A stretch of 64,000 bases of DNA, taken from assembly GCF_011765625.1 (NCBI RefSeq), contig NZ_CP050315.1, positions 62,001-126,000 on the forward strand. The letters run 5' to 3'. This document shows positions 4,942 to 58,843 of the stretch, in pieces. The notes beneath the pieces are model-generated. The model was given only the letters and a program-made list of their open reading frames with translations, was not told the DNA's origin and searched no databases. The DNA is from Shewanella aestuarii. Lineage in GTDB: Bacteria; Pseudomonadota; Gammaproteobacteria; Enterobacterales; Shewanellaceae. Numbering within the stretch: the stretch's first letter is position 1; every line of letters begins with the position of its first letter. Position numbers and translations under genes: made by a program.

Positions 4942-6096
4942 CTACAGGCTTTTGTCTAATCCGAAGATATCCGCATCATCATTTGATGGGTCAACTTGAA
5001 TGCTGATATTGCTTATCTCGTTATCAATCATTTCCGACATAGACAGTGCGTGAAGCCCCTCGGAAATCTTGGACAAATTAAAAAGTGGCGTATCAGCAAT
5101 GAGGGTCATAAGTTCTTGGTTGTTAAATCGAGATAGCGCACATTGCGTGATAGTAGAGATATCATTGTAACTGGCGTGAGTAGCTAAAAAGTCAGTAATG
5201 AAATGCTTTTCGCCAGCTGAGGCTTTGTTAATTTCGCTGATGTCAAAACCATCCACCAATCCCTTAAAGCATGCCTCTAAAATTTGAGGTTTTAATTTCT
5301 GCAACTTTTTGAAATTCACTTTGTTCCATTGGCTGATTTCTGTGCATAACTGTTGTAGCAACGCTAAATCTGCTAGAGGAAGTTCATTGGGCAGTTTGCT
5401 CAATGAGCGCATAAATCTTTCGGATAAAGTAGAACTTCTAGGTATGGAGTTGATTAGCCCCTCAGATAAGTTATAAAAAAGGGGGCTCCGTGAATTTTGA
5501 GGTTCAAAACCAAGATCCATTTTGCAAGGTATATTGGCGTATGAATTATTGGGTAATGATAATCCCGACGGGTAACAGTTAATTTTTGTTTTATCGGGAT
5601 AAATACTTATACTACCGATAGATAATGAATTTTCATTGAAGTAGCAACCCAATTGGCAGATCTGATTATTTAGTTTGGTTGCTACATAAAATATACAATC
5701 ATTGGCATCATTCGGCTCATACATTTCGGCAAAAGCCTCGGGCGAGAGCAAGAGTGACAAGGCAGTTTGGCCAACGATAAATTTGTATGCTTGCGTGATG
5801 CGAACCCTATCCTCGCTATCCTGAGCATATTCGCCACAGTACAATTCTTGATAGCGTGATTTGGCAATTGATTGGAGTGGACTGTCAGCCAAAAACGCTT
5901 CCAGCTGATGTACCGTGTCCATGGAATAGCAGTCAGCATCAAACACATCGGCTACATCAAAATGGCGATAGTCCCAACATTTCAAAAACTCATCGGTTAT
6001 ATATTGACGAGCTTCCAAAATATCGAACTGCTTCGCGACTTTTTGATAATTAACGAGCAAATCGTGAAACTCATTTTCCAGATAATCCATAAGCAT
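4942..6096 (-). CDS. NSL-tail family protein (DKSL tail)
   Basis: 384 residues, unknown function. It belongs to the element's paralogous family because its end carries both hallmarks: the amphipathic motif LSMSEMIDNEISNI about 30 residues from the end, and an acidic linker (NDDADIFG) leading to the terminal DKSL. It is the only member with Lys instead of Asn at the third position from the end. It lies apart from the two main arrays. Its ribosome site is inside a perfect inverted repeat (see 6099-6131), so translation may be controlled by RNA folding. Confidence 0.7.
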   Translation of the reverse strand: MLMDYLENEFHDLLVNYQKVAKQFDILEARQYITDEFLKCWDYRHFDVADVFDADCYSMDTVHQLEAFLADSPLQSIAKSRYQELYCGEYAQDSEDRVRITQAYKFIVGQTALSLLLSPEAFAEMYEPNDANDCIFYVATKLNNQICQLGCYFNENSLSIGSISIYPDKTKINCYPSGLSLPNNSYANIPCKMDLGFEPQNSRSPLFYNLSEGLINSIPRSSTLSERFMRSLSKLPNELPLADLALLQQLCTEISQWNKVNFKKLQKLKPQILEACFKGLVDGFDISEINKASAGEKHFITDFLATHASYNDISTITQCALSRFNNQELMTLIADTPLFNLSKISEGLHALSMSEMIDNEISNISIQVDPSNDDADIFGLDKSL

Positions 6097-6098
6097 TT

Positions 6099-6131
6099 GG
6101 CATACCTCAACTAAAGAAAGTGAGGTATGCC
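6099..6131 (-). promoter_or_regulatory. 11-bp inverted repeat sequestering a ribosome binding site
   Basis: GGCATACCTCA (6099-6109) and TGAGGTATGCC (6121-6131) are exact reverse complements around an 11-base loop. On the minus-strand mRNA the 3' arm contains the GAGG ribosome site, and the ATG at 6096 follows two bases later. Neither strand has a T-run, so this is not a simple terminator. It is either a translational switch or a protein-binding site. Confidence 0.6.
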
Positions 6132-6164
6132 CTCACAAGCATCCGAAAAAGGGAAAATAGAAGA

Positions 6165-16915: not shown

Positions 16916-16981
16916 AACTACCTCGAAACGTTTAATTGATACTTGATAATAGGCTTAAAGCCTGTTATTGTCAATATAAAA

Positions 16982-17007: not shown

Positions 17008-17014
17008 CAATAAA

Positions 17015-22228: not shown

Positions 22229-22253
22229 TATACTTAACGTATACTTGAAAAGT
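22229..22253 (+). promoter_or_regulatory. -10 box and operator heading the plus-strand NSL-tail array
   Basis: TATACT (22229-22234) continued by TAAC-GTATAC-TTGAAAAGTGG. Central GTATAC with ACTT/AAGT arms. The GGAG ribosome site overlaps the right edge, so the bound repressor would cover -10 to the ribosome site. Confidence 0.7.
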
Positions 22254-22263
22254 GGAGATAGCA

Positions 22264-23504
22264 ATGAGCGAGCAAACTTTCAATCAGATCTGCAACAATG
22301 CCGCCTTAATAGTCGATGAAAAAATCGGTCAAACTGCCGGATTTTTGTACCAACTGTCATTTCACATTCAAACATTGGCTCGCCACATTTTAGCAAAGAA
22401 TGCGTTTTGCACAACTGAACAAGCGCAAGCGCTAATCCACTCGCTCAACGAGCAAAATCAACTTGCTAAGTACCTAGAACCCAATAAATTTTACAATTCT
22501 GAGTTGCCAAAACACCTCTCATTTCAAGATTACAAACAAGCGGCATTGGCACACGCTCTAGAGCACATTGACATGTCACAAGTGTCACTCGACTTGCAGC
22601 AATTTACATTGCATGGTGAGCAAGGCTATCATTTCACGCTGAAATTCGATTGGCAGGGCGGGATAGCCGCCTTTGCCAGTGAACTATGTTGCACTGATGG
22701 GAAGGTCGCACTCGATGATGGCTGTACTGTCGTGTCTTTTGGTAATGATTGTGTACATATCAACTGGCTGATAGAACCCATTAAAAACGAGCCAAGCCTT
22801 ACCTTTGATGCGATGTGCCTTGAGATCTTTAACGATGCAACCAGCAAACTGTCCATCCAATCAAACGCTTTGCAGGCCGAATTTAACCACGCTAGCCCTC
22901 TGGACCAACTAGAAGCTTGTCCCGCAGACTCGGCCATGATGCTGTTGATAAATGCGTATCTCGATGCCAGTTATCAGGATAATGCGCAAGATTTCTTTCC
23001 CTGTTCTGCACTGATAGCAGATTATCTCGCAGGTGAGTCTACCCAGCACAAAGTTAACAATATCGATGAGTCTTATTTTAAAAAAGGCCAAGGCGATGAC
23101 GTTGACAAATGGATTGAGTATTTCAGCAAACTTGACCGCACGATAGACGCAATGTTTTTGGCTAACGTCGATGCGCCGATACAAGATCACCCCGATGGGC
23201 AGCAATATCGAAAAAATGCCAAGGTCAAAGAAGCCTTCTGCAAGCAAGCCTTAACCGCTAACCGAGCAATGGATAATCCCATTGCTTTGCACGCACTGAT
23301 ACAGGCCATCAATGTCGATGTGTTCAATCATCAAGGGGGGCAATCAAGAACGCGCTACACCAGCATTTTGAGCAAATACAATTTGTGGCGCAAAGTTGCG
23401 CTATCAGCCACAACATTAATGCGATGTTGGCATCAAACAACGCGGTACAACTGACTCAAGCTGAAAAGGACACGCCACAACTGGCTGTCATCAATGCGCT
23501 TTAG
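22264..23504 (+). CDS. NSL-tail family protein (INAL tail), frameshifted at a G6 run
   Basis: The frame from ATG 22264 (GGAG six bases upstream) runs to a stop at 23454. After the GGGGGG run at 23335-23340 another frame continues coherent family sequence (AIKNALHQHFEQIQFVAQS, then CAISHNINAML) to the family tail VINAL and TAG at 23504. The intact protein is about 413 residues. It contains a central beta-rich section like its neighbours. Slippage in the G run could make expression phase-variable, or a base may be miscalled. It is the first gene of the array and 11 bases upstream of the next. Confidence 0.7.
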
Positions 23505-23515: not shown

Positions 23516-24781
23516 ATGCACTTATACAATGACCTTGAATCGCTCGTTACCGCCGCAGGAAAAGCAGTGCGTTATGCCGATATTGAACACGCTGCACAGG
23601 CCGTGACTGACAGAATGCAAGCCAGAATAGACGAATTGACACAAATTCAAATGCCGGTGATGCTAAAAGAATTTACGCATCACTTTCAACAAGACGGCAA
23701 TGACTACTTAAAACCCTACATGGAAAACGCGCAGTTTCTTCAGGAAATTCAGGCTCGTTACAATAAGGGGCTTTTTGAACTCACCGCTGAAGACATTACA
23801 CGATTAACTGAACAGTGTGACATCAAAGCGGCAAGCAAATGCGTTATGCATGACTATCGCAGACATGATCTCAATAAATGCCTGTTTCTTCATCATATAG
23901 CGGATCACAGTGAAGCGATCTCAATCGCTAACATCAACACCCACTCATGGAGCAAAATCAATTTTGTATTAGACATCAAGACGCCAAACCTTAACACGCA
24001 GGCTCACATAAGTCTCTCAGATGATGACTATGAACTCGACGCTTCAAAAATGCATATTTCATATAATGCGGAGAAAGTACAATCTATTTTCGGGTTTCAA
24101 TTCACTGAACAACAATGCCAAAGCATTAGTCAATTTAATGAAGGCGAGTTTGGCATACTGCCGGAGGTTTTGGATTCAGAATGTCCTGCGTATAGCGCCG
24201 ATGCTGCGCTAATGAGGCTCAAGGGGTCAATTGAAATATGCATGAGTGCGCGAGCGCTAATGCTAAACCCAACACAACCGGATAGACAATGTTTAGATCA
24301 AGTATTCGATAAATATACCAAAGCGCCTCAACCGTTTGTTTATCATTTCTTAGACGACCTGACTTCGCTCACACCCCAGCAATACTATCAAAACGTTGCG
24401 CTTTTCATGACGGGCAATCCCATGGATACGCTCAGCCCAACACTTGATGAAGATGCAATGAGCAAAACAAAGCTGCCTATCTTGCGTTCCATCTGCTGCA
24501 TACCGTTATTGGATGAACAGAACAAAAACTATATGGAATATTTGCTTCATTTAAATCGTTTAGTGAACGCCATCGACGAGGAAAGCCTACCAGGGAAATA
24601 TATCAACAGCAGCATAGTAAAGAGGCAATTAAGAGAGGGCCGAATAGCACTAATTGACTATGAACAGTGCCTTAATTTAAGCCAATCGATAACCGAATGC
24701 ATAGAGTCGGAATTTAAAGAGTTAGGTGCCAGTGAAAAGGTAAACGATGAGATATCAAATGCTTTAATAAATTCTCTATAA
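23516..24781 (+). CDS. NSL-tail family protein (INSL tail)
   Basis: 421 residues, intact, second in the array. Helical N-terminus (LESLVTAAGKAVRYADIEHA), central strands with the ALMLNPTQPD element shared with the 25394 protein, and the C-terminal module LNLSQSITECIESEF followed by the tail NALINSL. Function unknown. No signal peptide or membrane segment, so cytoplasmic. Confidence 0.75.
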   Translation: MHLYNDLESLVTAAGKAVRYADIEHAAQAVTDRMQARIDELTQIQMPVMLKEFTHHFQQDGNDYLKPYMENAQFLQEIQARYNKGLFELTAEDITRLTEQCDIKAASKCVMHDYRRHDLNKCLFLHHIADHSEAISIANINTHSWSKINFVLDIKTPNLNTQAHISLSDDDYELDASKMHISYNAEKVQSIFGFQFTEQQCQSISQFNEGEFGILPEVLDSECPAYSADAALMRLKGSIEICMSARALMLNPTQPDRQCLDQVFDKYTKAPQPFVYHFLDDLTSLTPQQYYQNVALFMTGNPMDTLSPTLDEDAMSKTKLPILRSICCIPLLDEQNKNYMEYLLHLNRLVNAIDEESLPGKYINSSIVKRQLREGRIALIDYEQCLNLSQSITECIESEFKELGASEKVNDEISNALINSL

Positions 24782-34282: not shown

Positions 34283-34509
34283 TTATCGACAGTGAATATA
34301 TTAACCCAGCTGTAGCCGCTATCGAATATGCGCTAACTGCGGAAGAGGGGATGACTTTTTTAAGACTCTGGAACGAAGGTGAGTTTGATATCATTCGCGA
34401 AGAGTGGCATGACGTTCCTGATGAAGTGTTCATCGGTGCTGATCCATTATTTACACACCAAAAACTCGCTTTGATGGGTGAAAGTAATGGTGCAGGCCAT
34501 GACTATTGA
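34279..34509 (+). CDS. Small acidic protein
   Basis: 76 residues, coupled by ATGA overlap to the HTH gene. Acidic, with the aromatic stretch FLRLWNEGEFDIIREEWHDV. It overlaps the start of the ankyrin gene. Unknown function. Confidence 0.5.
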   Translation: MIIDSEYINPAVAAIEYALTAEEGMTFLRLWNEGEFDIIREEWHDVPDEVFIGADPLFTHQKLALMGESNGAGHDY

Positions 34510-41323: not shown

Positions 41324-42489
41324 TTAAATACTATTTAACGGTTTAAGGTTTAATTCAACATCTGGTTTAGCGCAGATTGAGCTTGAAGTAATAATATCAC
41401 TTGCTATTTGGGTATTAAGCGATTCAGATAAGGCTAAGCATGAAGCTAATTCCTGATATTTGCTTGGGTCGTTACTGTAGTGATAGGAAAGATCTAAATC
41501 ACATTTGCGTATCTTATTAAAATCGACAGTTTCAATATTTAATAGCTCTGCAATATAACGATCTGACATCCTATGTGTGTTATAACAATCAGCCAATATT
41601 TGCTCGATAAAATACGGGTCACCGTCGTCTAATGTGTTAAGTTGAGTTAATCGACTATGCAATGCTTTGGCGCCGATTTGTTCAGCTATCTGTGACTGAT
41701 TGAGAATCAATGAAACATGTTTTGCAAGGTTCAAATCAGGACAATTCTCAGTTCTAAAAGCTTTAAAATCCTCAAATGCAGCATCAGAGCCATCACAGAT
41801 AAAGGTTTCTATTGCATGAAAAAAAGGGATAGCTTTATAAATAGCATCGCAATGTTCAATTGAATCATCAAGATTCATAAATTCTATCCGAAAACCTTTT
41901 AAATAAGCCTTAGCTGCATTATCGAGTTGTTTTGCCAGTGCGACAGCCTTTAATTCAGTTTCATCAGACGCTAGCTGGGTGCGAAGAGGGATGACTTCAG
42001 GTGATTTTATGCTAGTCATTGCTAGCGATAAGTCACCTGACGCTAAATCAAATGTTAATTTAATCCGAGGTAGTTCAATAGTGGAGATATAGATGTCCAA
42101 ATTTTGAGCATTAATAAACTTAAGATCTTGTGGTGAAGAAATCGCAACCACAGATACTTTGTGTTCTTCTATGACGGTCTTCTCCAACGCCCAATGCTTA
42201 AATTCATGATATAACTCATCTCTCTTAAGCGGATAGGTTCTGCCATGCAGCATAGATGCTAGTTGATGGGTTCTATATCTTCCACTGTCTTTCCAGTGCC
42301 ATAGCAATAAACATTTGTCAGAAGCGAGAAGTCGTTGTCGATTGCGGGATCACGCAATCGTAATAGGCCGCTATTTACGGACTGAGCCTGTTCTTTTGAA
42401 AGCTGTTTAAGCGTTCTAATGAACTCAATTAGGTTTAGTGCTTGCTGCTGAGACTGTGTAATGTTGCCTTGGCGATGTTGTGTGCTCAT
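41324..42489 (-). CDS. NSL-tail family protein (LNSI tail), frameshifted
   Basis: Two frames join here. The 5' frame (ATG 42489, MSTQHRQGNITQSQQQALN) ends at 42259. The 3' frame, open from about 42307, continues with family-like sequence to the module LALSESLNTQIASD and the tail LNLKPLNSI at 41324. The two overlap between 42259 and 42307, so a single-base change in that stretch would restore one protein of about 387 residues. It has its own operator-bearing promoter, separate from the long operon upstream. Confidence 0.65.
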
Positions 42490-42612: not shown

Positions 42613-42626
42613 TAAAGTAACTTTAA
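42613..42626. repeat. Dispersed palindrome, copy 6
   Basis: TAAAGTAACTTTAA; it overlaps the stop codon of the 42623 gene. Confidence 0.75.
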
Positions 42627-43930
42627 AGGCTATTTAGCGGGATAGGATCAATTATTTCACTCTCTTTAATTTCCTTAGCAGCGGCTATAGGTAACTGTTC
42701 AGGAGCAAAATCAGATACTGCGGCATCGAGGCTTTTGGCTAAAGATTCACAAGCAACCTGCTCTTTTATCTGTATATATTTTTCTCCATAAGTCTCTTCT
42801 AGTCCGAAATATGGATGAAGGTCAGATTCGACCACCAGCTTAAAATTGGCAAGTTTTTCTTCAATTGTAAGGTCAGATTCGACCACCAGCTCAAAATTGA
42901 CAAGTTTTTCTTCATTTGTAAGGAGATTTGGGCTTGAAACTGTCTCTTCAAATTCAGTGTCTATGAGGTCGTTCAAGATGCTGTAACCAACTTCCCATAT
43001 TAGCCGCTCGTTAGCCGGGCTTTTAGCTAAACAATCACCTAATTCTTTAATGACGGGCAAAACCTCAGTTAGCTTGAAATTGGGATGAGTTTGGTGGAAT
43101 TTAAGGCTAGTTTTAAACGACCAAGAATCTGCCAAATCACAGAAAGTGTTGGTGAACTGTGTAATACGGTCGGCAATTACATTAATGTTTTGCGGGTATT
43201 CAAATGCAAGGTCGATTAACTGGCAGACATGATTAAAAGCACCTAAAGGGTGAGTATGCAAAAAATCATCAGTATTTTCAATTGTCAGGTTGACCGATGA
43301 AAGTAAGCAATAAGCATTTAATATCATCCTGTGATATCGCAATGTTTTATTTAAATCGGCTAATGAAGATAGCTGTTCTACCTCACTTATCGTGCAAAGT
43401 TTTTCTCGTATTGGTAAGATCTCTATCGACTGACGCCGGTTTCCTAATTTTAACGTTAATTTATCTTCTTCAAAAAATGGTTGCTCATGGTGAATGATGT
43501 GAAAACTTTGATTGCCATTCCAAAAACATAAATCCAGCTCATCAGCATTAAGCAGCCCTGTCGATTGTGAGTTAAAAGCCCAAATGTCAGCAATTCGCAG
43601 CTCTAGTTTATGAGCATCCCTAAACGCCCCCCACTTTAAGACTTCCATATCCAGATCGTTGCGGTTATCTATATGCAAAAAATCAGCTGCATAGAACTCG
43701 TTTTCATACTTATCAGTTGTCTGCCGACTATTTTCACTGATATAGATCTCTTCCAAACGCTCAGCCAGTTCACGGCCAAGTTTACTATCAAACTTTTTTA
43801 AATAGTTTGATGCCAATAATTGAAAAAATGCGACATCTTGCTTAACGATGTTAGCGATAAATCGGCAGTGGTCTTGGCTAATAACACATGAGTCTAATGC
43901 TGAGTTTTCAATTGCTTTGTGAATATTCAT
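42623..43930 (-). CDS. NSL-tail family protein (LNSL tail) with internal 17-residue repeat
   Basis: 435 residues, last gene of the long minus operon. C-terminal module ESLAKSLDAAVSDF, linker with acidic residues and IDPIPLNSL. Near residue 340-370 a 17-residue unit occurs twice (EEKLVNFELVVESDL and EEKLANFKLVVESDL), encoded by a 51-base tandem repeat at 42819-42920. The in-frame unit can expand or contract without breaking the gene. Confidence 0.74.
   Translation of the reverse strand: MNIHKAIENSALDSCVISQDHCRFIANIVKQDVAFFQLLASNYLKKFDSKLGRELAERLEEIYISENSRQTTDKYENEFYAADFLHIDNRNDLDMEVLKWGAFRDAHKLELRIADIWAFNSQSTGLLNADELDLCFWNGNQSFHIIHHEQPFFEEDKLTLKLGNRRQSIEILPIREKLCTISEVEQLSSLADLNKTLRYHRMILNAYCLLSSVNLTIENTDDFLHTHPLGAFNHVCQLIDLAFEYPQNINVIADRITQFTNTFCDLADSWSFKTSLKFHQTHPNFKLTEVLPVIKELGDCLAKSPANERLIWEVGYSILNDLIDTEFEETVSSPNLLTNEEKLVNFELVVESDLTIEEKLANFKLVVESDLHPYFGLEETYGEKYIQIKEQVACESLAKSLDAAVSDFAPEQLPIAAAKEIKESEIIDPIPLNSL
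42819..42920. repeat. 51-bp tandem repeat, two copies, in frame
   Basis: Units 42819-42869 and 42870-42920, differing at only a few positions. Confidence 0.85.
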
Positions 43931-43954: not shown

Positions 43955-45264
43955 TCAAAGACTATTTGATACTGATAATGAGATATCGACGACTTCAGTC
44001 TCAAGATCAGTGCTGCGAATAGAGCTATTCGATAAGGCTAAATCAATACTCTGACTTAGTTTGATGGCGTTGAATTCCTCAAGCTGAATGTCTAAAGCCT
44101 CTGACAGTATTGGTAAGAATAAAAACGCTTGATGAGAAAATACACCCTCAAAATCCTCTAGATGGTCAATCACATTTTTGCCGCGAAAATGATTTTTAAC
44201 TAAACCAACACAGTACGGTGATATATTTTGGTAAGTCACGAATAAACTATTATCTGAATATTCTGAAGACTGTAATTCTAAAGTCTGCGCGATCTCTTGC
44301 GCTATATCCAATATCGCTGACGCTTGATGAGGTTCTGGTAAGCAAAAGTTGTTAAAAAACGATTTATTATCGCCACAATGACAGAATAACTTATGAGCTA
44401 ACATAATCCTCTCTCCATCATCTAACTGACCACCAGATAGGGGCTTATTTAACTGGAAATCATTAAACTCAGTCACACATTTTTCAAAAGCTAGCTTATT
44501 GGCTGTGAATGAACCACACAAATCCGATAATTGCTCACCAATCAAAAGGGGAAAGCCATTAGAGAAAATATCAACATCTTTTATAGTACGAAAGAATTCA
44601 AATTCAGAAACAAATGCAGTTGTGACACGAAATAACGGGTCTAATTTATTGAATGCGAGGCAATTAAAACTTCCCGAACCGAGAACACTTTTTAGCTCAT
44701 CTTTAAAGCCTGGTAACGCTCGAAATAATACATCACTAAGGACATCGTTATTGAAAGTATTCACTGTGAGAGAAAATTCACCATAAGGGTCACATTGAAG
44801 ATCAAAATGAAAGTCACGTTCATAAGGTAAGCTGCTAACAAACCTTAAACAGCAACTTGTTGCGGCCTCATGAGATACGATATCCATGTGATCTAATACG
44901 CCATCAATATTTAACTCAGACTGAAAGAATGCCCATATGTCAAACAGCAAAGCAAGATCTTCAGGTGAATAATCGCCACATTTTTCAACTTCAACATCTT
45001 CAATAAATTGATAATTTTCTTCCCAATCATCCTTATCGAAGTTAAACCGTGTAACAGAGTTAGTAGAACAATCAATATCGATTAAATCCCTTGCTCAATC
45101 AACCGTTCTTTATCAGCAAATATGGATAATATAACAGGAGGTAATTTCTCAATCCGTTCCTTTAACAAAGCTACCGCCTCTAGCACAGCGCTCGCACCAA
45201 TTAGCGCCAGTCGTTGTTCCTTCGATTTTATATCGGTTAAGTTAACATTAGGATGGCGTAACAT
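43955..45264 (-). CDS. NSL-tail family protein (SNSL tail), MLxxPN subfamily, frameshifted
   Basis: ATG 45264 (AGAGAGG upstream) gives MLRHPNVNLTDIKSKEQRLA up to IEQGI and a stop at 45082. In the next frame the sequence goes on without a break (DLIDIDCSTNSVTRFNFDKD ... SPEDLALLFDIWAFF) through to the module IKLSQSIDLALSNS and the tail LSVSNSL at 43955. One base change near 45085-45095, at a GGG run, separates them. The intact protein is about 436 residues. Confidence 0.7.
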
Positions 45265-45274: not shown

Positions 45275-46495
45275 CTATAAAGCGTTTTTCAAACCGAAAT
45301 GCACTTCTTCAGTGCGGCTATTAAGTTCATCGTGCAATAGATTGTCTTGAATCTGGTTGTCTATGCTATTGGCCAACGATAATGACTGATAACAATCGTT
45401 AATTTCTGCTTGTGAGTAGTCGATGTAGTCAAATAGAGCTGGAATGCTTTTGGTCAGTGGATGTTGTGAAAATTTATATAGCTCGTCTACATTATCAAAT
45501 AGCAATGTATCTTTAAAATGATGATAAGTAATCGATTCAGCAACAACCTTTGCATTGCAAACATCATCGCCAAAAGCGGTATAAATATGCTGCAAACGGT
45601 CAAATATATGAGTAATACTGTCGGATTTTTCAGCACCTAATCGGGCAGCAACAAGCTCGAATGGTCTTTGGCATAAACTATGGGTGAGATTTCTTAAAAA
45701 ATCATAGTCATCAGGTATGGTTTTGCCGTAGAGGTCGTATTCGTTAAATTGGCTGATTAATTGGTTAATGGTTGCCTGATTATTCAGCATATCTCCCTGA
45801 TTTGAAGTCAAAAAATGATTGAAATCATCATCGTTGATAGTGATAGTGCGCTCACTAAAATCGATACGGTCTTCATAAAATGGGAAATTGCTTTTTGGAA
45901 AAGCCAACGACGTTAAAGGCTCTTGAGACATGAGTTCACTGTAGCGGGTTTCAAAATCGGGTAGAATACGAGACAAGCTTTTAAGGTCTAATGTCCATTC
46001 TCCCGCCCCGAAATTGAAATCAAATTGATCGCCTTTTTTATTTAAAGTGATAAAAAAACCTATATCAAAATCAGAAAAGCCAATGGTATGCTGAAAATCA
46101 TGATCCAATGCCGCACACTTATAGCGGATAGCAGATATAATTTCCAAATCAGCATCTGAAATTATCCACAAACCCAATGCTGTACAGTAATCATCGGCTG
46201 AAAAATTCAAGTTATAGGTGTTATTTAAATGTTTAACATCTGAATCAGAAAATATCGCCATGCAAGTATTTTCGTTCCAATTTTCATCAGGATAAAAGCC
46301 GCAATAGTCGTCAGTATCATCATCTGGATTTTCATGAACTACATTATCAAAATATTCGACCAAACCATCTGGCAGATTGGATACTTGCTCATCGATTAAT
46401 CTAAGCACTTTTTGACCAGTATTAACAATTTCAGAAAGCACTTCTTTCTCGAAGTCTTTGAATGTTGGAATATCAAAATTTGGCTTGGTTAACAT
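45275..46495 (-). CDS. NSL-tail family protein (KNAL tail), MLxxPN subfamily
   Basis: 406 residues from ATG 46495, which has GAGG ten bases upstream and gives the family start MLTKPNFDIPTFKDFEKEVL. C-terminal module LSLANSIDNQIQDN, then an acidic linker (LNSRTEEVHFG) and LKNAL. Tightly packed in the operon (10 bases to the next start). Confidence 0.75.
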   Translation of the reverse strand: MLTKPNFDIPTFKDFEKEVLSEIVNTGQKVLRLIDEQVSNLPDGLVEYFDNVVHENPDDDTDDYCGFYPDENWNENTCMAIFSDSDVKHLNNTYNLNFSADDYCTALGLWIISDADLEIISAIRYKCAALDHDFQHTIGFSDFDIGFFITLNKKGDQFDFNFGAGEWTLDLKSLSRILPDFETRYSELMSQEPLTSLAFPKSNFPFYEDRIDFSERTITINDDDFNHFLTSNQGDMLNNQATINQLISQFNEYDLYGKTIPDDYDFLRNLTHSLCQRPFELVAARLGAEKSDSITHIFDRLQHIYTAFGDDVCNAKVVAESITYHHFKDTLLFDNVDELYKFSQHPLTKSIPALFDYIDYSQAEINDCYQSLSLANSIDNQIQDNLLHDELNSRTEEVHFGLKNAL

Positions 46496-46509
46496 AGCGA
46501 ATTCCTCTA

Positions 46510-47814
46510 TCACAATGAGTTTGAAGGCAGTTTGTTGCAGTCGTTTTCATGATCGACCAATGGGTGAGAAATCATCTCGGCGTCATTGATTAATTTATCA
46601 ATATTATTAGATAGTTGTAGTGAATTATAATGTTCTATCGCTATGGAGACTGGTGTTTGTAAGTCTATTGGTAAATGCGTTAAATTATCCGCATAATGTG
46701 CTTTAAACAGTGGATGCTCAATTAATTCAAAAAATTCGCTTTGATCGCGCTGGATGTTACCTTTTTTATCAAAAAACACTTCAGAGAGTAGCGCGTTGTT
46801 AAAAATGATAAATTGAGCATCCAATAAAAAGCGATTTCTATCCTCTACAGCGACCGATTTACGCAAGGCCCACGCTTTATCTAAAATACAAGTGACACTA
46901 TCACCGTTTTCAGCACCAAATTTATGTAAAAATGAGGGAAATCCTTTATTTAGAACACAACCCATAAATTCAATAAAATCAATATCATCTATAGTGCTTG
47001 GGATTTCGTTAGGATGTGTTTTGCCATGTGCAGTAAATAATCTTTCAAGACTGCGACTTAATGAGGGTTTGTGAGAATCGAGCGCAGCAAGGAATGAGTT
47101 GTCAAACTCAGTATCCCAAATTGAAGGTAACACACTACATACAAGCCCACTGCCTATTTCTTCTAATGAGGAATTATGAAGCTGATATAAGGGGTTGTCG
47201 CAAAAGTTGGGTAACCTGCTTTGTACGAGTTCAGTTAGCCCATCAAAAAAAGAGTACGATTCAAGACAAGTAATAACATAATCTTCGGTTTCAATGCTTA
47301 GTCTAACATTATCACCAGCAACGCACATACAAAAATTAAAGTGAGCGGCATTCTTATTGTCGCAAAAAACAACATCCATCCCATGAAATAAAACGTCGTT
47401 ATTTAAAAAACCAAATTTAACACCCCTTGGCAGGGTTGGAAAATCGCAATGACGTTGCAACCAAAACAGAAACATAACGCTTAACTCGCGCTCGTCAGTT
47501 ATTTGAACTCCGCGTTCAGCAAGTTGCACTATTTCATCCTTGGTAAATAGTTCTTCTTTAGATTCATAAATATCGTCCGACGCGATAACATTGTCAGAAA
47601 AATCTATTCTGAATAAGCTATTTTGCCAGTCACGAGTGTTCATGCCATTTTCACAAAATTTTGATGCAAACAATGCTAAGATGGCGGGGTCGAATCTCTC
47701 TACAGCATCAAGCATAAAACCGATGGCATCACGATGCAGGCGCAACATTGTCAAATGAATGTTTTTTTCATCTTGAATTAATGCGTCTTTATCTAAATTA
47801 GGTGTGTTAAGCAT
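46510..47814 (-). CDS. NSL-tail family protein (SNSL tail), MLxxPN subfamily
   Basis: 434 residues from ATG 47814, the third start codon in GTG-ATG-ATG, which matches the family start MLNTPNLDKDALIQDEKN. C-terminal module LQLSNNIDKLINDA, linker with HENDCNK and LPSNSL. It shares with its neighbours the central element 'F-T-K-D-E-I-V-Q-L'. Confidence 0.75.
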   Translation of the reverse strand: MLNTPNLDKDALIQDEKNIHLTMLRLHRDAIGFMLDAVERFDPAILALFASKFCENGMNTRDWQNSLFRIDFSDNVIASDDIYESKEELFTKDEIVQLAERGVQITDERELSVMFLFWLQRHCDFPTLPRGVKFGFLNNDVLFHGMDVVFCDNKNAAHFNFCMCVAGDNVRLSIETEDYVITCLESYSFFDGLTELVQSRLPNFCDNPLYQLHNSSLEEIGSGLVCSVLPSIWDTEFDNSFLAALDSHKPSLSRSLERLFTAHGKTHPNEIPSTIDDIDFIEFMGCVLNKGFPSFLHKFGAENGDSVTCILDKAWALRKSVAVEDRNRFLLDAQFIIFNNALLSEVFFDKKGNIQRDQSEFFELIEHPLFKAHYADNLTHLPIDLQTPVSIAIEHYNSLQLSNNIDKLINDAEMISHPLVDHENDCNKLPSNSL

Positions 47815-47829
47815 CATCACCGCCTCAAT

Positions 47830-49140
47830 TTACAATGAATTTAAAGGTAACTGGTCATTAGCGTTTTCTTTATCGAATTCGGTGTTTATGCTTTTGTTAG
47901 TCACCGCCAAATTATCAATGCTTTGCTCAATGAGCTCCGACATAAGCAATGACGAGCGATAATCATCAATTAAAACCACTTCGTTCTTAAAATGATTGCG
48001 TAATCTTTCCAAGCCAATAAAAACCGGATGATCCATAAATCGCATGTATTCTTCTGGGCAAGAGGTTACTGATTTCTCGTTAAAATAAGCATCCGATAGT
48101 TCACAAGCCAAATATTCCACACTCTCTAAAGTGCAACCAGGCAACGATGCTAAGACAGATAGCTTGTCCAGAATATCAACGATATTGTCAACCTCCGGCT
48201 CAAAGCCAAACCTTAATAGCAGCGGAGCATATTCATCACACAAAATTGAATGGCAATAAGCTGACAACTCACCGGAATAATTCTCAGTCGAATCGTTAGA
48301 TTGAACAAATTGAGAAATATACCCTGACCGCTTGACGAGATTGGCAATAGATTCGCTGATCGAGCCACCATTCTGCACACAAAAACCAAGTCGTTCCTCA
48401 AATTTCGGGCTGTCGAGAACGGGATATTCAAGTAAAGGGGTGGCAAGATGACAATCACCGGTAAAGGATATCCGGCCCAAGTGCGGCGTTGCATCATGAT
48501 ACGCTGCAGTTTGCTGGCATGTTATACCCGAGTGCTCTAATAGTAGATTGGAAAGTTTTTTATCGAAGTGCTCTAATATTGATGTGATATTTTGATATGA
48601 AATCTCGCCGTTATCATAGCCTATGGATACTTCTGGGACACCTTTATCAAGGCATAAATTAATAACTGCGAAAATCGACTCGGACTCTGTTTCAAAAGAA
48701 GTATGAAAACCCTGTTCTGATCTTAACTCATCAATGTGGTAAATTACCTTAGTGACCTGATCCAATTCTTCTGTGCAAAATATAAACATGCCAAACGCAA
48801 GACTCAGCTCTTCATTCGTGTACGATGTTCCCAACTCATGATTGATCCGAGTAGTCTCATCATCAGAAAAAAATTCTTCGTCAATCCCGTCTATATAAAT
48901 GTAATTGTTAGCAAAATCACAAAAACCCAATTGGATATGCTCAAGAATATCAACATCGAGAATATCATTGATGCCAACATGCAATTTAGAGCTAAATTCT
49001 TTGATTAGCGAGGGATGTAAAGAACTCAATTCCTCTTTTAAGAGGCCAAATATTGCTACGCCTACGTTGGCAGTCGCGAGGATCAAATTGCGCTCAAACG
49101 ATGTGATAGCATCAGTATCTAAGTTAGGTTTATTTAACAT
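47830..49140 (-). CDS. NSL-tail family protein (LNSL tail), MLxxPN subfamily
   Basis: 436 residues from ATG 49140 (MLNKPNLDTDAITSFERNLI). A longer frame upstream adds 12 unrelated residues and is not preferred. Module LLMSELIEQSIDNL, linker NTEFDKENAND and tail QLPLNSL. The central element YTNEELSLAFGMFIF is shared with paralogs. Confidence 0.75.
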   Translation of the reverse strand: MLNKPNLDTDAITSFERNLILATANVGVAIFGLLKEELSSLHPSLIKEFSSKLHVGINDILDVDILEHIQLGFCDFANNYIYIDGIDEEFFSDDETTRINHELGTSYTNEELSLAFGMFIFCTEELDQVTKVIYHIDELRSEQGFHTSFETESESIFAVINLCLDKGVPEVSIGYDNGEISYQNITSILEHFDKKLSNLLLEHSGITCQQTAAYHDATPHLGRISFTGDCHLATPLLEYPVLDSPKFEERLGFCVQNGGSISESIANLVKRSGYISQFVQSNDSTENYSGELSAYCHSILCDEYAPLLLRFGFEPEVDNIVDILDKLSVLASLPGCTLESVEYLACELSDAYFNEKSVTSCPEEYMRFMDHPVFIGLERLRNHFKNEVVLIDDYRSSLLMSELIEQSIDNLAVTNKSINTEFDKENANDQLPLNSL

Positions 49141-49182
49141 AAAAGCCCCGCTTAAAGAAACATTGTGATATGACAAGCAAAA

Positions 49183-49785
49183 TCACGCGCAGTAGTCCAA
49201 ATGACGGATAAGCCCTTGCTCATCTTCCTCTGGCCCGTAATAGTCGAACCAATATTGATGCGTATCCCAAAAATCATCGTCAAAGTCTGTTGCCAGATAA
49301 CGCTGAGATTTATAGAAGCCATCTAAGGCATCAAATTTGTAAAGGTAGCGATAATGTACGTCACCAGAAGGTGTAAAATGACTCGAAATAAATTTGTCTT
49401 GAGCTAGCCCACGTATAAATTCCCGCTCCCACTTAGCTTTAGATTGGCCTGTATGAATGGCCTTACTTAATTTATGCGATGCTCTATCGAGAATAATTGG
49501 GTCATCGAAAACTTCAGTTATCCAGTCATGAAAATATTGAAGGGCAATTAAAGAGCCACCCTGTTTCACAATTGCATCAAAATTAATATCCACCAGCATC
49601 ATTAAATTAAAGCTATGCAACGACGCAGAATCGTCACCTTTCTCCATATTTAATCGTGCTCCCTTGCGCCCAGGGATTAAGTAAATCGGCATATCATTCA
49701 TATAACAAAAATATTGATACATCAGATCTGTAACACCTTCTGTCGCAAGCGCAGTTTGATAAACTGAATGAGTTACAGTGCTCAT
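49183..49785 (-). CDS. Hypothetical protein within the NSL-tail operon
   Basis: 200 residues, coupled by ATGA overlap to the paralog upstream. It has no family tail (it ends HLDYCA). Rich in Tyr, Phe and Asp (YKSQRYLATDFDDDFWDTHQ). It may be an accessory factor of the operon. No known family. Confidence 0.55.
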   Translation of the reverse strand: MSTVTHSVYQTALATEGVTDLMYQYFCYMNDMPIYLIPGRKGARLNMEKGDDSASLHSFNLMMLVDINFDAIVKQGGSLIALQYFHDWITEVFDDPIILDRASHKLSKAIHTGQSKAKWEREFIRGLAQDKFISSHFTPSGDVHYRYLYKFDALDGFYKSQRYLATDFDDDFWDTHQYWFDYYGPEEDEQGLIRHLDYCA

Positions 49786-51059
49786 AGAGAATTCCCCAGT
49801 TGTAGAACAGACTCAGGTTCATCATCAACCTGTGAAGGCGTAAGGGTGTTAAGCAACGACTGTTCGATTGAGTGACATAAATCAGAGCAGAGTTGAGTAT
49901 TATGAAATTGTTCAAGCTCTACGCTAAATGTAGAAAAGAGGGATTTATAAGACGGAGAGAGATAATTAAGCGTATCTTTAATGCGGTCAATTTCGTGAAC
50001 AAATTCACCGATTTTAATTGCGTCATCGAGATAAGCAATGCGGCAATGACAAAGCGAGTCTAGTAATTCATCAAAGATTGGTTCTACAAACTCTAGGTCA
50101 ACGCGGTGATTGTGTTGTTCGAAAAGGCAAGCTGCAAAATTATCAATGAGCCGGATATATGCTTCATTAGATACGGGGTGCGTAGCGAGAATTTTAGGAA
50201 TAATAGCAGGAAAATCATGAAGTACGTGGACAGGTGAATAAGAATAATCCAAACCCATATCCTGAATATATTGATTAATTTCTTCAAAATCATGATGTAA
50301 TTCCGGCTGAAAAATGGCCTTAACCAGTTGATTTGTTGTGTCAACTAAGCCGGAAATGCAATCCAAATCCTGTCTATGGTTATAGGATTGAGTAAATTGA
50401 GATATATGACTCCAAGCAATAAAGTCATCTTTGCTTAAGTTGTCAAAACGATGCGCTAATATTGGTCCCTCGCGACCAACAACCACGCGCTCACAAAATG
50501 ATTCGGTATAAAAGGTATGCTTGAGGTCAATTTCAGTCAGATCCTTATTGACGAAAAATCGAAGCCTGAACCGTATCGCCTCGTCATCGTCAACTGACAA
50601 CGGTAATATATTTATTGCAAACCTACCGTCTGATTCAAATATTTCCACACGCGCATTATCTGAGGGGGTCACCGTCGTTACCTCAGATGTGTGAAGACCT
50701 TTTATTGCAAGGTAGGTACGCAAATCTTCGCATGGTGAACCTGAACAATTATTAAATTCATAGTAATCTGAGACTGAAGGGTGGATAACGACATCATCTT
50801 CAGCATCCATATCCGCGACATCAATTCCAAGCATTTCATTGTGTTCGATCATTTGTTCAAAGGCTTGCTGCAACTCATTGGGTATTTCAAGCAATGCTGC
50901 ATTCTGCATAGCTCTGAGTGCGAGTGGAATGACTTGCAGTATGGAATTATTAATGCGGCATTGTAATGAATCTATGTAATCACACTCTGATGAAAAAGAG
51001 GGCTCTAAATAGCTAAGGTTTTGCGGGAAATGTTCAAGATTTATCATCGTGGTCTGCAT
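49782..51059 (-). CDS. NSL-tail family protein (GNSL tail)
   Basis: 425 residues from ATG 51059; 51047 is an alternative. Module SDLCHSIEQSLLNT, linker PSQVDDEPE and tail VLQLGNSL. The start overlaps the end of the 51034 gene, so they are coupled. Confidence 0.73.
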   Translation of the reverse strand: MQTTMINLEHFPQNLSYLEPSFSSECDYIDSLQCRINNSILQVIPLALRAMQNAALLEIPNELQQAFEQMIEHNEMLGIDVADMDAEDDVVIHPSVSDYYEFNNCSGSPCEDLRTYLAIKGLHTSEVTTVTPSDNARVEIFESDGRFAINILPLSVDDDEAIRFRLRFFVNKDLTEIDLKHTFYTESFCERVVVGREGPILAHRFDNLSKDDFIAWSHISQFTQSYNHRQDLDCISGLVDTTNQLVKAIFQPELHHDFEEINQYIQDMGLDYSYSPVHVLHDFPAIIPKILATHPVSNEAYIRLIDNFAACLFEQHNHRVDLEFVEPIFDELLDSLCHCRIAYLDDAIKIGEFVHEIDRIKDTLNYLSPSYKSLFSTFSVELEQFHNTQLCSDLCHSIEQSLLNTLTPSQVDDEPESVLQLGNSL

Positions 51060-51420
51060 GAATTTCACCATTTAATAGTTGAACTTCCACAATCGATAGT
51101 GGTGATAGAGATTGCTGGCCGTTGATAGGGAAGTTACCCGTCATAACAGGGATCAGGAATTTGCGAATAAAATGCTTTAGTCGGTATGGGTTTTCAGCCA
51201 TGGCAGAACACTCTTCACCGGAGAGATAAGAAAAAGTAATAATTTGGTCCAGTGAGTTATTGTGGATGGTCATAAGCACATCTTCAGATTTTAAAAATCG
51301 AATGGTGAAATCCACATAGGCCGAATCGCTGCAAACACCCAGTTCATGCACGAGAATTTCTTGCACAAAGGCAGAGGAAAAGTAATTGAGTTTAAGTAAA
51401 TTTTTTTTAGTAAGATACAT
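51034..51420 (-). CDS. Hypothetical protein, first gene of the long minus operon
   Basis: 128 residues (MYLTKKNLLKLNYFSSAFVQ ... LLNGEIHADHDDKS). No known domain. It heads an operon that runs through 49782, 49183, 47830, 46510, 45275, 43955 and 42623 with gaps or overlaps of at most about 45 bases. The operator site at 51445-51466 lies just upstream. Confidence 0.6.
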   Translation of the reverse strand: MYLTKKNLLKLNYFSSAFVQEILVHELGVCSDSAYVDFTIRFLKSEDVLMTIHNNSLDQIITFSYLSGEECSAMAENPYRLKHFIRKFLIPVMTGNFPINGQQSLSPLSIVEVQLLNGEIHADHDDKS

Positions 51421-52363: not shown

Positions 52364-53449
52364 CTAAAGACTATTATTAATATGAAAAACATCTGACTGC
52401 GGATTTGCGGTATCACTCTGTTCTAGATCGCTATCATCATGTAAAACAGATTCTATGCGTTGATTCAATTCGAGGCAGTTTTTTAACTCATTAATGGCAT
52501 CTTCATGCTCAATAAGTACATGACGAGCTAAAGCAGCTTCGTAAAGTTTTAAAAATTGGCATGTCGCATGAAGCTCAATTCTCTCATCTGTAGTGGCATG
52601 CGTTTCTAATAAACGGACCAATTCATGACTCATCGCCGCCGTTGTACTTTCGCCCAAATAAAAGCCGGTGTAACTGTCTAAATTAGCGATGCGAGGTAAC
52701 AGTGATAATTTGGGTATACTATCTAAGCTATGAGATTGAGCCAGTTCACGAAGCGCTTCATGAGTAAAGCGATCATTCTGGGCAAGCAACCTGCCACCAA
52801 ACAACCCGTTAAAACGCTCAAGGTTATCTGGATGCATTAGCGCATCATGCACAAACGCCTGAAAAACGATTGGGCTAATCACATCTTTATCATAGTCCAA
52901 TATATCAGATGCCGATTTATCAAGCGTCAAGTAGCTTGGTAAAGATGTAAGGTCGATATCTGACTTCAAATAAGCGCATTGCAAAGACTGTGAAAAACTC
53001 CGATTTGCCTGTTTATCGTTATCAATACGCTCATCACAAACAGTAAGGTAAATCTTTGAGTGTGTACTGTGACTATTGAAAGTACAGAGACAGCCCAACC
53101 TCATTTGATCATTGCCAAATTTTAAATATATCTGAGTTTCAGCACCGTCATTGCGTAAGTCAACCGAATGAGGCGTTCCAAGGCGCTCCATTTCTAGCAG
53201 CATTCGCATCAGATAAAACCGAGATGATTTTTCATCATCGGTAGAATGCCTGCGTAGAAATTCAAACAACCCATAATTGGCAGACTGATGCTTAAAAGCG
53301 GTGTCTTCTAGCACATTATGTAAGCCAAATTTTTCATAAGCTATTTTGCTCGTCAAGGTATCGATGAACGACATAATGGCGCGAGTATTAGCAGCAAGCT
53401 TTTGCTCCAAGTTCAATTTTAACTGAGTGAGCGAATTAACATCATGCAT
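52364..53449 (-). CDS. NSL-tail family protein (NNSL tail)
   Basis: 361 residues from ATG 53449 (GAGG seven bases upstream). Module LELNQRIESVLHDD, linker QSDTANPQSD and tail VFHINNSL. It stands alone rather than in the long operon. Confidence 0.72.
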   Translation of the reverse strand: MHDVNSLTQLKLNLEQKLAANTRAIMSFIDTLTSKIAYEKFGLHNVLEDTAFKHQSANYGLFEFLRRHSTDDEKSSRFYLMRMLLEMERLGTPHSVDLRNDGAETQIYLKFGNDQMRLGCLCTFNSHSTHSKIYLTVCDERIDNDKQANRSFSQSLQCAYLKSDIDLTSLPSYLTLDKSASDILDYDKDVISPIVFQAFVHDALMHPDNLERFNGLFGGRLLAQNDRFTHEALRELAQSHSLDSIPKLSLLPRIANLDSYTGFYLGESTTAAMSHELVRLLETHATTDERIELHATCQFLKLYEAALARHVLIEHEDAINELKNCLELNQRIESVLHDDSDLEQSDTANPQSDVFHINNSL

Positions 53450-56067: not shown

Positions 56068-56078
56068 AATTAATCAAC

Positions 56079-56106: not shown

Positions 56107-56174
56107 CTACAGAAACTAAAGACTACACAGTCTAAATAGTATAAACAAACTACCTGCGCAGGAGGGATTTGCAA

Positions 56175-56657
56175 ATGGTTAATTCAGCAGAGTATTTTAG
56201 AACGTTATTCGATAAGGCAATCTATGCTGGTGGCCGTGATCTCATGTTTAACATCAGACTCGACCGACCCGAATTCGGGTTGCATGTTAAGAATGCCCGA
56301 AATCAAGTTAACTTTTTAGACATGGAAAACCCATTTGAATTTAAAAAGCACCTCAAAAAGATCATTGAAACGCATAGTCGTCCGAATGAACGAGCCTTGT
56401 ATGTAAATGAAAAAGGTGAATATCATTTTGAAAAGCTGATTTTCAACATGCGCTTTTCCACACCAGAAGTGGTGAAACTGTTTGGGCATGGATTTAATTT
56501 AACGTTAACCATAAATGACCGAGGCCGTGTGTTGACAGGGGCAATGACCATCAAGCATACCGATGCAGAATGGGCCTACTACGAGAAACAATGCCAAACG
56601 CATTTGGCCAACATGCGAGAAAAGTTTAACAAAGAGGGGTTAGACGCGGCGAGCTAA
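56175..56657 (+). CDS. Hypothetical protein
   Basis: 160 residues from ATG 56175, with GGAGG nine bases upstream. Sequence MVNSAEYFRTLFDKAIYAGG ... FNMRFSTPEVVKLFGHGFNL is mixed alpha/beta with a C-terminal helix rich in charged residues. Divergent from the helicase and ending one base before the stop of the next minus gene. Unknown. Confidence 0.55.
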   Translation: MVNSAEYFRTLFDKAIYAGGRDLMFNIRLDRPEFGLHVKNARNQVNFLDMENPFEFKKHLKKIIETHSRPNERALYVNEKGEYHFEKLIFNMRFSTPEVVKLFGHGFNLTLTINDRGRVLTGAMTIKHTDAEWAYYEKQCQTHLANMREKFNKEGLDAAS

Positions 56658-56658
56658 A

Positions 56659-57834
56659 TCACAAGCTGTTATCGAAATGACTCTCCAACGTATTATCGTC
56701 CAATACCGCATCACCAACGCTACCTATGTTCTGAATCGCTTCTTCGAGTGATTCAGACAATTTCAGGCAATCTTTATAATCTTTCACTTTCTCATAATTC
56801 TCTACCATCAACGGTATACGATCTTCTGTAAAATAACCCCGATCAGGAAACGAATCGAGTGTGACTAGATGTTTTAGTAAGACCTGCTCGTTATCAAATA
56901 TGCCAGATCTATCCAGCCAATGTTGGATCATGTCTGCCTCAAAAAAATCGAGAATTGGCATAAACGTGTTACGTGTTGATAGAGAATAAAGCGCTGACAA
57001 AAAGGCTTCAAAATCATCTGGATGTGTCCAGCCGATAATATTATATTTGGCTTGTTTAACGGTGTCTCTTCTAAACTCAGCAAAGCGCTCTGATTGAAAT
57101 AACGCAGATAGATGACTGAAATCGAAATCGGGATTCATCATCGCTATCGCAATGCCATTAACCAGTAAATCACAATAATCATCAAATGAACCCAATTGAG
57201 CAACAACAAAACTTGGATCTGCCGAATCTTTATGTGCCATAAGCTCATCAAATCTTACGATATTTTCAAACAAATAGTCACCATGAGATAAAGAATCAAT
57301 AAGTTTTTTATCTAAGCATCCATCAGCAATAGGCAAATAGAGGTTCTTAGAATCCCTTTCATTATGGAACTTGAGGGCTCGGTCAGTTACATTGTAATCA
57401 ATGCCACCAATGCGCCCATCACCCTCTCCAATTTCCACATTAAATATAAGTTTGTTTCGGTAATTGCTGAAGATACTTACACTGTGAATTTGGTTTAGTT
57501 CAGTGCGATTTGAACAAAGAACGTCATACAGAATAAATGCTGACCTAAAATCAAACTCGCTTACATCTATACTAAAATCGCTGTCATTAATCCCAAGCCA
57601 CATCTCTTCAAAAAATAATGGGTCTTTAGCTAAGTTAGTTGAGCGTAAAGATGAAAATTCCTCTGCTAAACCGATATATTCTGCAAACAAGCCATCTAAA
57701 TACTCACTGACAGCCTTGTTGAACAAACTTGTTAAATCATGGGTGAATGACTTAAGTGGTGCAACTTGAGCCTGACATGCTAAAGAGAAGTCATTGGCCA
57801 GTGCTAAATACGATTGATTAGGATCATGCTGCAT
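56659..57834 (-). CDS. NSL-tail family protein (DNSL tail)
   Basis: 391 residues from ATG 57834 (GAGG eight bases upstream, MQHDPNQSYLALANDFSLAC). A longer open frame upstream overlaps the 57824 gene and is not used. Module LKLSESLEEAIQNI, linker with DDNTLE and tail SHFDNSL. Confidence 0.72.
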   Translation of the reverse strand: MQHDPNQSYLALANDFSLACQAQVAPLKSFTHDLTSLFNKAVSEYLDGLFAEYIGLAEEFSSLRSTNLAKDPLFFEEMWLGINDSDFSIDVSEFDFRSAFILYDVLCSNRTELNQIHSVSIFSNYRNKLIFNVEIGEGDGRIGGIDYNVTDRALKFHNERDSKNLYLPIADGCLDKKLIDSLSHGDYLFENIVRFDELMAHKDSADPSFVVAQLGSFDDYCDLLVNGIAIAMMNPDFDFSHLSALFQSERFAEFRRDTVKQAKYNIIGWTHPDDFEAFLSALYSLSTRNTFMPILDFFEADMIQHWLDRSGIFDNEQVLLKHLVTLDSFPDRGYFTEDRIPLMVENYEKVKDYKDCLKLSESLEEAIQNIGSVGDAVLDDNTLESHFDNSL

Positions 57835-58843
57835 GGTCGTGACCTCGTTTTTCATCATGAAATAGCAAAGATAATGATTCTGGGCCTTTGTAGTAGCAAA
57901 CTCTAATGAGTTGCTTGTATTGACCAGACGAAAGGGTTGCCAGTTTATCTTTGAGTGCCGTAAGTTGCTGCAAATGCGAATCAGGATAAACTGCACTGCA
58001 ATAACAAAGAATTTCAAATAAGAACTGTTTTGCTTTTACCTCAGACAATTGAGAGAAGAGTTCATCAACAAGGTAGATCAAAAAACTGTGGAGGTGAAGA
58101 TGATGCTGAAAGATGTCGCTATGGAGCATCAAGATAACATCCTGTGGTTCGGCAGATGCTAAGTTACACCACTCAACAGTAAATTTCGCGGTAACGTGCA
58201 TATCCGAAGACGAGCGAATGAGCTTTGGAAATAGGTTATGCTGCAATAAAAACGGAAGTAAGGTTTCTTTTAGGTTGTTCACGCAAAGCGTGTAGAGAAA
58301 TAGTGTCTCGCAGTTGATATCAACCACTTCATCTGGGGTAAGTCGATACAGTATGCTTGAAATACATTTTGAAAGATCTGGTGCTGCAATAAGTTGCGGT
58401 GCAGACAGAATCAATTTAGCAAGATATGGTTGGGAAACAAGAGAAAGGCTTAAAAGTGAGTTGGCACAACGATCATCTAATTGATGGTCGATGGTCGAAT
58501 AAAACAACAGGGTATTGGATAGCGTATCTTCATATCCCTCATGATGCAGATGATATAGCAGCCGTCCGAACATACCAAATTCACTGTTAAAGAACAGTTT
58601 TACAAAACCCGCATGAGCAATAAACTGATTGAATTCATTTGAAAAGCGCTTTAATAGCAATGATCTTTCCCGCGTTGAAAGCAGGTCCAAGCAACAATTG
58701 AATGTAAAATGCTCGGTGTTATTTGCGTAATTAAAAAGGCTTTTATTGGTTCCGACGAAATTCAATTGAATAGCCGCAAGCGATTCAAACAAACTGTCCA
58801 AATCAGATGAAGCTAAATCGAAATCTAATTTTAATTTCTCCAT
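57824..58843 (-). CDS. Hypothetical Leu-rich protein
   Basis: 339 residues from ATG 58843, all-helical and Leu/His/Phe-rich (LLPFLLQHNLFPKLIRSS, HLHLHSFLIYLVDELFSQL), suggesting an alpha-solenoid. It has no NSL tail (ends KRGHDHAA) but is translationally coupled to the NSL-tail gene downstream (11-base overlap), so it may be a partner. Strong promoter and operator upstream. Confidence 0.55.
   Translation of the reverse strand: MEKLKLDFDLASSDLDSLFESLAAIQLNFVGTNKSLFNYANNTEHFTFNCCLDLLSTRERSLLLKRFSNEFNQFIAHAGFVKLFFNSEFGMFGRLLYHLHHEGYEDTLSNTLLFYSTIDHQLDDRCANSLLSLSLVSQPYLAKLILSAPQLIAAPDLSKCISSILYRLTPDEVVDINCETLFLYTLCVNNLKETLLPFLLQHNLFPKLIRSSSDMHVTAKFTVEWCNLASAEPQDVILMLHSDIFQHHLHLHSFLIYLVDELFSQLSEVKAKQFLFEILCYCSAVYPDSHLQQLTALKDKLATLSSGQYKQLIRVCYYKGPESLSLLFHDEKRGHDHAA

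Follow-up and report, generated by a model that had tools for sequence, protein, structure and literature searches.

A plasmid-specific C-terminal tail on fast-diverging proteins of a Shewanella aestuarii plasmid, a candidate signal for a Dot/Icm-like coupling complex

The window analysed here is a stretch of 64,000 nucleotides from Shewanella aestuarii (NCBI RefSeq assembly GCF_011765625.1, contig NZ_CP050315.1), corresponding to positions 62001-126000 of a plasmid-like replicon of 212,170 bases, one of three contigs (hereafter C3). An earlier note, made from the letters of this stretch, had described twenty genes whose products share an extreme C-terminal tail of the form [NK][SA][LI]. With moderate confidence, and on the basis of sequence comparisons, this tail is proposed to be a plasmid-specific recognition signal, most likely recruiting its carriers to the Dot/Icm-like coupling complex of the plasmid, a proposal in which the reader, the delivery, the recipient and the role of the cargo are what we infer.

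Ends of the form N[SA][LI] were found in 19 of the 199 C3 open reading frames (ORFs) of at least 80 aa, where the frequencies of internal tripeptides predict 0.35 (binomial p = 5e-27), as compared with 1 of 290 ORFs in a chromosome sample (19 stretches of 20 kb). Three-position patterns (46,656 in all) were scanned in ORFs of at least 150 aa, both at the C-terminus and in windows 7, 12, 20 and 40 residues inside the proteins. The pattern that came out first at the C-terminus of C3 was N[SA][LI] (19/163 ORFs, log10 p = -28.1), whereas the best patterns of the internal windows reached only -3.1 to -4.3. A chance origin of the C3 tail is excluded.

Intact ORFs ending [NK][SA][LI] were confirmed for 17 of the twenty genes named beforehand (16 ending N[SA][LI] and one, at 4942, ending DKSL), whereas the tails at 22264, 24819 and 28098 lie in another frame than the main ORF. 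These three appear to be broken genes or indels of the assembly; unless the latter applies, part of the set seems to be decaying. Beyond the window, C3 has another three intact carriers (C3:27559-28296, 144296-145558 and 206135-207202), giving a total of 20, in which position -3 is Asn in 19 and Lys in one, position -2 is Ser in 17 and Ala in three, and position -1 is Leu in 18 and Ile in two. The variation in tail codons reported earlier was borne out, as the 20 tails comprise 16 distinct nonamers, with six Ser codons, six Leu codons and three stop codons.

The sister plasmid of Shewanella inventionis (SI; contigs C8 and C24) was used to follow the carriers in a relative. The partners of 14 C3 carriers, selected by reciprocal best match without regard to their ends, end N[SAT][LI] in 13 cases, the exception being TSTL, and such ends occur in 18 of the 157 SI ORFs of at least 150 aa. 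The ends of homologues, which could have turned out random, are thus kept in SI, and other plasmids were found to have words of their own (below). Carrier pairs had a median identity of 29.1% (n = 14) and the other pairs one of 66.2% (n = 118; Mann-Whitney p = 2.6e-8), yet the last three residues were identical in 10 of the 14 carrier pairs, against 35 of the 118 others (which include the disrupted gene at 22252, whose SI reciprocal best match has an open frame ending VNSL) and 4 of 40 others at no more than 60% identity. The group word was also kept in two matches from a large protein set, P0005 (59% identical, NNAL for KNAL) and P0009 (48% identical, VMSL for IMSL).

Different words were found on other plasmids. 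The Shewanella xiamenensis plasmid NZ_CP106875.1 (SX), which shares many core genes with C3, carries clustered hypothetical proteins with [LMF][ST][LI] ends (18/175, log10 p = -21.0), and the Aeromonas caviae plasmid pAC1520 (AC) has [LMF][KR]M (10/195, log10 p = -19.4) or, more broadly, [LMF][KR][LM] (14/195). AC and pMAH4 (AH) were counted once because they are near-identical, their matched carriers being 84-100% identical. LRV repeats above the Pfam cut-off were detected in 8 of the 10 AC carriers compared, and in none of 10 C3 and none of 10 SX carriers; differing bodies bear such tails, ankyrin on C3 and LRV on AC. Both repeat types serve as binding scaffolds. The scan also covered plasmids from Alteromonas (AM, and AK with the first 280 of its 336 kb), Vibrio (VN, VC and VA), Pseudomonas (ND6) and Acidovorax (ACI), as well as R64. 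Nothing above noise was seen at the C-termini of VN, VC, VA, ND6 and R64. Candidate words on AM (log10 p = -7.1) and AK (-6.1) are not claimed, since similar values arose elsewhere (chromosome, -6.9; ACI, -7.4; a VA internal offset, -9.1), and the first apparent words of VA turned out to be transposase copies. Proteins with TIR and RelA/SpoT domains but no tail are also found in the SX cluster (L031:5793-10512).

The change of word between plasmids bears on the suggestion that the tail is a degradation tag for a host protease (ClpXP or Prc/Tsp), by which the carriers would be kept short-lived. The C-termini are hydrophobic at the end, of low confidence in the structure model and probably exposed, and they recall protease tags; the S. 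inventionis and S. xiamenensis plasmids, however, use different words while their host proteases are presumably alike, and only one such end was seen among the 290 ORFs of the chromosome sample, for which reasons this explanation was rejected as very improbable. A shared host factor of any kind is likewise unlikely as reader, given the different words of SX and SI.

Common ancestry alone, the carriers being paralogues whose C-terminus has not yet been lost, was weighed against the same data. Several C3 carriers are paralogues detectable by BLAST, and a profile of 16 C3 carriers also recovers the disrupted 28098 gene, its remaining matches being its own rows. The bodies, however, have diverged far beyond other genes while the ends remained fixed, the tail codons vary, and such ends stand on bodies as different as ankyrin and LRV repeats, so that pure paralogy, to which we assign hardly any probability, was rejected. 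Homologues of the carrier bodies were found in none of 39 relatives besides the genome's own, and in none of eight related plasmids in a search that had no positive control; further searches, in two of which the scored candidates were capped at 8,000, gave at least nine proteins, from C3, SI, SX and two further sources. Body profiles of C3 against SX, and of C3 plus SI against SX, revealed no homology. When only the last 85 residues were compared with hhalign, p was 1e-12 for C3-SI, 0.02 for C3-SX, 0.18 for SI-SX, 0.05 for C3 plus SI against SX, 0.04 for SX-AC and 0.64 for both C3-AC and SI-AC, with ten random controls at 0.67-0.98. Profiles of the 14 C3-SI carrier pairs, searched against ten other plasmids (2,785 ORFs), matched the SX ankyrin protein (9e-9) and the SX neighbour of a VWA gene (0.001), besides two weak matches (0.006 and 0.015).

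The linker upstream of the tail, described earlier as acidic or polar, is indeed acidic, the mean net charge of residues -30 to -4 being -4.6 in the 20 C3 carriers and -0.84 when every C3 ORF of 150 aa or more, the carriers among them, is taken. A helix pattern derived from the C3 carriers was located 31-40 residues before the terminus in 18 of these 20 and at 67 in another, and was not detected in the last; on SI, 16 of 18 carriers have it at 29-43. Its frequencies on C3 (19/20) and SI (17/18) are circular, as the pattern was built from C3; on AC it was found in 10 of 20 tails against 14 of 140 (p = 6e-5), and on SX in 5 of 16 against 13 of 111 (p = 0.05). An AlphaFold2 model of the 45275 carrier, taken from an inner start (406 aa; 31 sequences), reached a predicted local distance difference test (pLDDT) of 78.5 and a predicted template modelling score of 0.69, with a long C-terminal helix at 362-393 and the tail, 396-406, at pLDDT <50, suggesting that the tail is disordered and probably exposed. 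A first model, of the 46510 carrier, was poor (pLDDT 54.8), and the carrier body had no clear match among the solved or viral folds compared. The layout is thus a helix about 34 residues before the end, an acidic linker and N-S-L, and could constitute a two-part signal, in which the helix is followed by a probably disordered, mostly acidic linker exposing N-[SA]-[LI]-COOH.

DotL and IcmW are encoded on all tail-bearing plasmids (C3, SI, SX and the Aeromonas lineage). The C3 DotL matches 6sz9 (phmmer E = 1.5e-77) and is 88% identical to a DotL of S. inventionis, and the C3 IcmW exceeds the Pfam cut-off, as it did in all nine sets searched and then in two of three further plasmids, though not in R64. 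NCBIfam matches on C3 comprise DotM, DotN, DotI, DotG, DotF, DotB and the type IVB pilus secretin, all below equivalog cut-offs, and the SX orthologue of C3:1-2346 is annotated as DotA/TraY. The family was detected in 2 of 394 genomes sampled from the order, the window's own included. A protein beside DotL has as its sole match a designed repeat protein (E = 4e-4). The protein of C3:210869-211360, encoded between IcmW and DotL, has a signal-peptide-like stretch at its start, and its position resembles that of IcmX. SX and AC each have a short DotM ORF, and DotL is in pieces on AC, whereas both are long on AH; decay, split genes or sequencing errors would each account for this.

Fixed ends, differing bodies and a word that changes between plasmids together argue for a plasmid-encoded reader. 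The earlier idea, a recognition tag for a single partner, finds good support in these three observations, apart from its host protease option, and among the partners between which no choice had been made (a chaperone, a PDZ/Prc/Clp protease, a channel or an assembly core) a Dot/Icm-type coupling complex now appears the best candidate. The signal would label fast-evolving plasmid proteins for one reader encoded by the plasmid, most likely the coupling complex (DotL, DotM and IcmW) of its own type IVB system; the carriers would then be injected as cargo into a second cell, perhaps the recipient in conjugation. Such delivery seems plausible in view of type IVB delivery into bacteria (PMC9519443) and conjugative protein co-transfer (PMC11288057), as far as the available parts of these reports go.

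The composition of the tails was compared with that of Legionella Icm/Dot effectors, in which, according to the part of PMC2701608 consulted, acidic residues are enriched at -8 to -18 and depleted at -1 to -6, Ser and Thr are enriched at -3 to -11, and hydrophobic residues at -1 to -3. Acidic residues at -8 to -18, the one composition test on C3 unaffected by carrier selection, were enriched on C3 (70/220, background 223/1573, p = 1e-9), SI (49/198, p = 2e-4) and SX (42/176, p = 3e-4). Acidic residues at -1 to -6 were depleted on C3 (5/120, p = 0.02) and also lower on SI and AC, though not on SX (p = 0.1), and counts of Ile, Leu, Val and Phe (ILVF) at -1 to -3 gave p = 0.3 on C3 and 4e-5 on SX; both measures are partly circular, because the carriers were chosen by their last three residues.

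A number of observations weigh against recruitment to the coupling complex. ILVF residues at -1 to -3 were not significantly enriched on C3, nor were Ser and Thr at -3 to -11 (22/180, background 167/1287, p = 0.9; SI, p = 0.09; SX, p = 0.1; AC, p = 0.7), and AC, whose ends are basic, had no acidic enrichment at -8 to -18 (28/220, p = 0.7). The E-block EExxE was found in 0/20 C3, 0/18 SI, 1/16 SX and 0/20 AC tails, and FxxxLxxxK, the helix motif for LvgA, in 2/20, 1/18, 1/16 and 0/20, respectively, each of the two being the signal of a subset of effectors; in the excerpt of PMC7251119 available, the E-block is proposed to be read by DotM and the helix bound by LvgA is another effector signal, and RalF, which has an extreme C-terminal signal with leucine or another hydrophobic residue, is IcmSW-independent. 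Neither IcmS nor LvgA was recognised on C3, no family match was obtained for the two small proteins on either side of DotL, and the charges of these two, DotL, DotM, DotN and IcmW did not clearly correspond to the tails. Judging by coordinates, no more than about two of the 20 intact carriers (C3 27559 and 206135) are placed within or near the secretion genes. VN, VC, VA and ND6 have IcmW and no tail above noise in the pattern scan, and ACI has IcmW with a best pattern, P[KR]P (5/204, log10 p = -7.4), near noise. Finally, the SX ankyrin orthologue ends PKPK, without the tail, and the SX gene adjoining the VWA gene ends TNSL, though the SX word differs.

Some of these data would suit a reader outside the secretion system. 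The tail could bind a plasmid-encoded hub, such as a scaffold or a replication/segregation core, so that the carriers act inside the donor, much as SSB tails recruit repair proteins. Any plasmid-encoded reader would explain the plasmid-specific spelling, the three Vibrio plasmids have secretion genes yet lack such a tail, and the small protein encoded next to the VWA gene has the end NNSL on C3 and SI and TNSL on SX, but differs on AC (NRHL) and AM (ARGL). The corresponding proteins end FDY on VN and FDL on VC, and those of SI, SX and AM are weakly similar to one another (E = 3e-7 to 6e-7, set size seven), the AC one not. No hub stands out, however: ORFs of C3 matched on SX, AC and AH and unmatched on AM, VN, VC and VA gave three candidates (C3:17401-17889, 78943-79893 and 201677-202786). 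The fast divergence of the carriers suggests conflict, which would fit encounters with other cells better than housekeeping, and we consider a hub unlikely.

Should recruitment to the coupling complex hold, a bolder extension can be offered tentatively. Each plasmid may have a private address code, in which about 20 hypervariable proteins bear a word (of the NSL, LSL or LRM type) matched to its own coupling complex and form an arsenal injected ahead of or with the DNA, perhaps against defences, the reader and the word co-evolving like lock and key. As a secretion signal, the tail would be an unusually sharp C-terminal type IVB signal, with natural variants that change the word from plasmid to plasmid; substrate recognition by Dot/Icm-type coupling complexes, an old question, would become directly testable, and candidate cargo could simply be listed on unannotated megaplasmids. 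The tail also draws attention to a little-explored group of plasmid-encoded proteins whose site of action may be the recipient cell.

The carriers of the window are listed in Table 1. On C3 beyond the window, the ORF at C3:204937-206166, directly upstream of a carrier, ends VLSL (its SI match, ALSL), resembling the SX word, and at C3:194968-196017 two short ORFs have similar ends, suggesting a repeat region. The window also encodes ParM-like (1591-2619), HipA-like (8167-10380), Ter-site binding (13276-14241), endonuclease I (16943-17893) and UvrD-like helicase (53593-56067) genes, several of which are also present on other plasmids of this family, and a protein with an MbeB_N mobilisation domain (15969-16391). 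No relaxase was recognised among the C3 proteins compared with Pfam, and seven related plasmids (W02-W08) and SX were typed as non-mobilizable.

Table 1. Genes of the window with the shared C-terminal tail (window coordinates).
Feature	Position	Strand	Length (aa)	Tail	Remark
Tail carrier	4942..6096	-	384	DKSL	Only carrier without Asn at -3
Disrupted tail carrier	22252..23504	+		INAL	Listed earlier as 22264; main ORF ends TRYN at 23454; tail in other frame
Tail carrier	23516..24781	+	421	INSL	
Disrupted short tail carrier	24819..25372	+		RNAL	Main ORF stops at 25328; tail in other frame
Tail carrier	26772..28031	+	419	HNSL	
Disrupted tail carrier	28098..29323	+		HNSL	Main ORF stops at 29198; tail in other frame
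Tail carrier	29347..30573	+	408	INAI	
Tail carrier	30737..31954	+	405	DNSL	
Ankyrin-repeat tail carrier	34478..35155	+	218	NNSL	ATG at 34499; Pfam Ank_2, E = 1.9e-12
Tail carrier	35178..36290	+	370	QNAL	
Tail carrier	36306..37577	+	423	RNSL	
Tail carrier	41324..42307	-	327	LNSI	
Tail carrier	42623..43930	-	435	LNSL	
Tail carrier	43955..44950	-	331	SNSL	
Tail carrier	45275..46513	-	412	KNAL	
Tail carrier	46510..47820	-	436	SNSL	
Tail carrier	47830..49176	-	448	LNSL	
Tail carrier	49782..51071	-	429	GNSL	
Tail carrier	52364..53449	-	361	NNSL	
Tail carrier	56659..58017	-	452	DNSL	Length as longest ORF

A strict plasmid-specific C-terminal tripeptide signal did not turn up in the literature searched, but the earlier statement that no described system has this layout was too strong, since the C-terminal signal of Icm/Dot effectors is in part alike in composition, at least in the portion of PMC2701608 considered. 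The conjutome of the F plasmid pED208 resembles the carriers in that proteins with C-terminal or internal signals are delivered to recipient bacteria; its signals, unlike the tail, are grouped by charge or hydrophobicity, with no common tripeptide in the part of the report at hand (PMC11288057). The kib system of Pseudomonas putida IsoF is likewise of type IVB and delivers into bacteria, but it has a single effector-immunity pair on a genomic island and, in the sections of PMC9519443 covered, no protein set with a common tail. Also close are the Dot/Icm effectors of Legionella, with which C3 shares a signal in the last tens of residues and, together with SI and SX, acidic residues at -8 to -18 (PMC2701608, in part), and for some of which, from what is given in the excerpt of PMC7251119, a hydrophobic C-terminal end and an upstream helix are likewise described. 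The resemblance is partial, because the E-block (absent from C3 and SI) and FxxxLxxxK (3/38 on these two plasmids) are nearly lacking, the expected Ser and Thr enrichment was not seen and the AC tails are basic. The carriers differ from Dot/Icm effectors also in that their last three residues are near-fixed across the whole set and change between plasmids.

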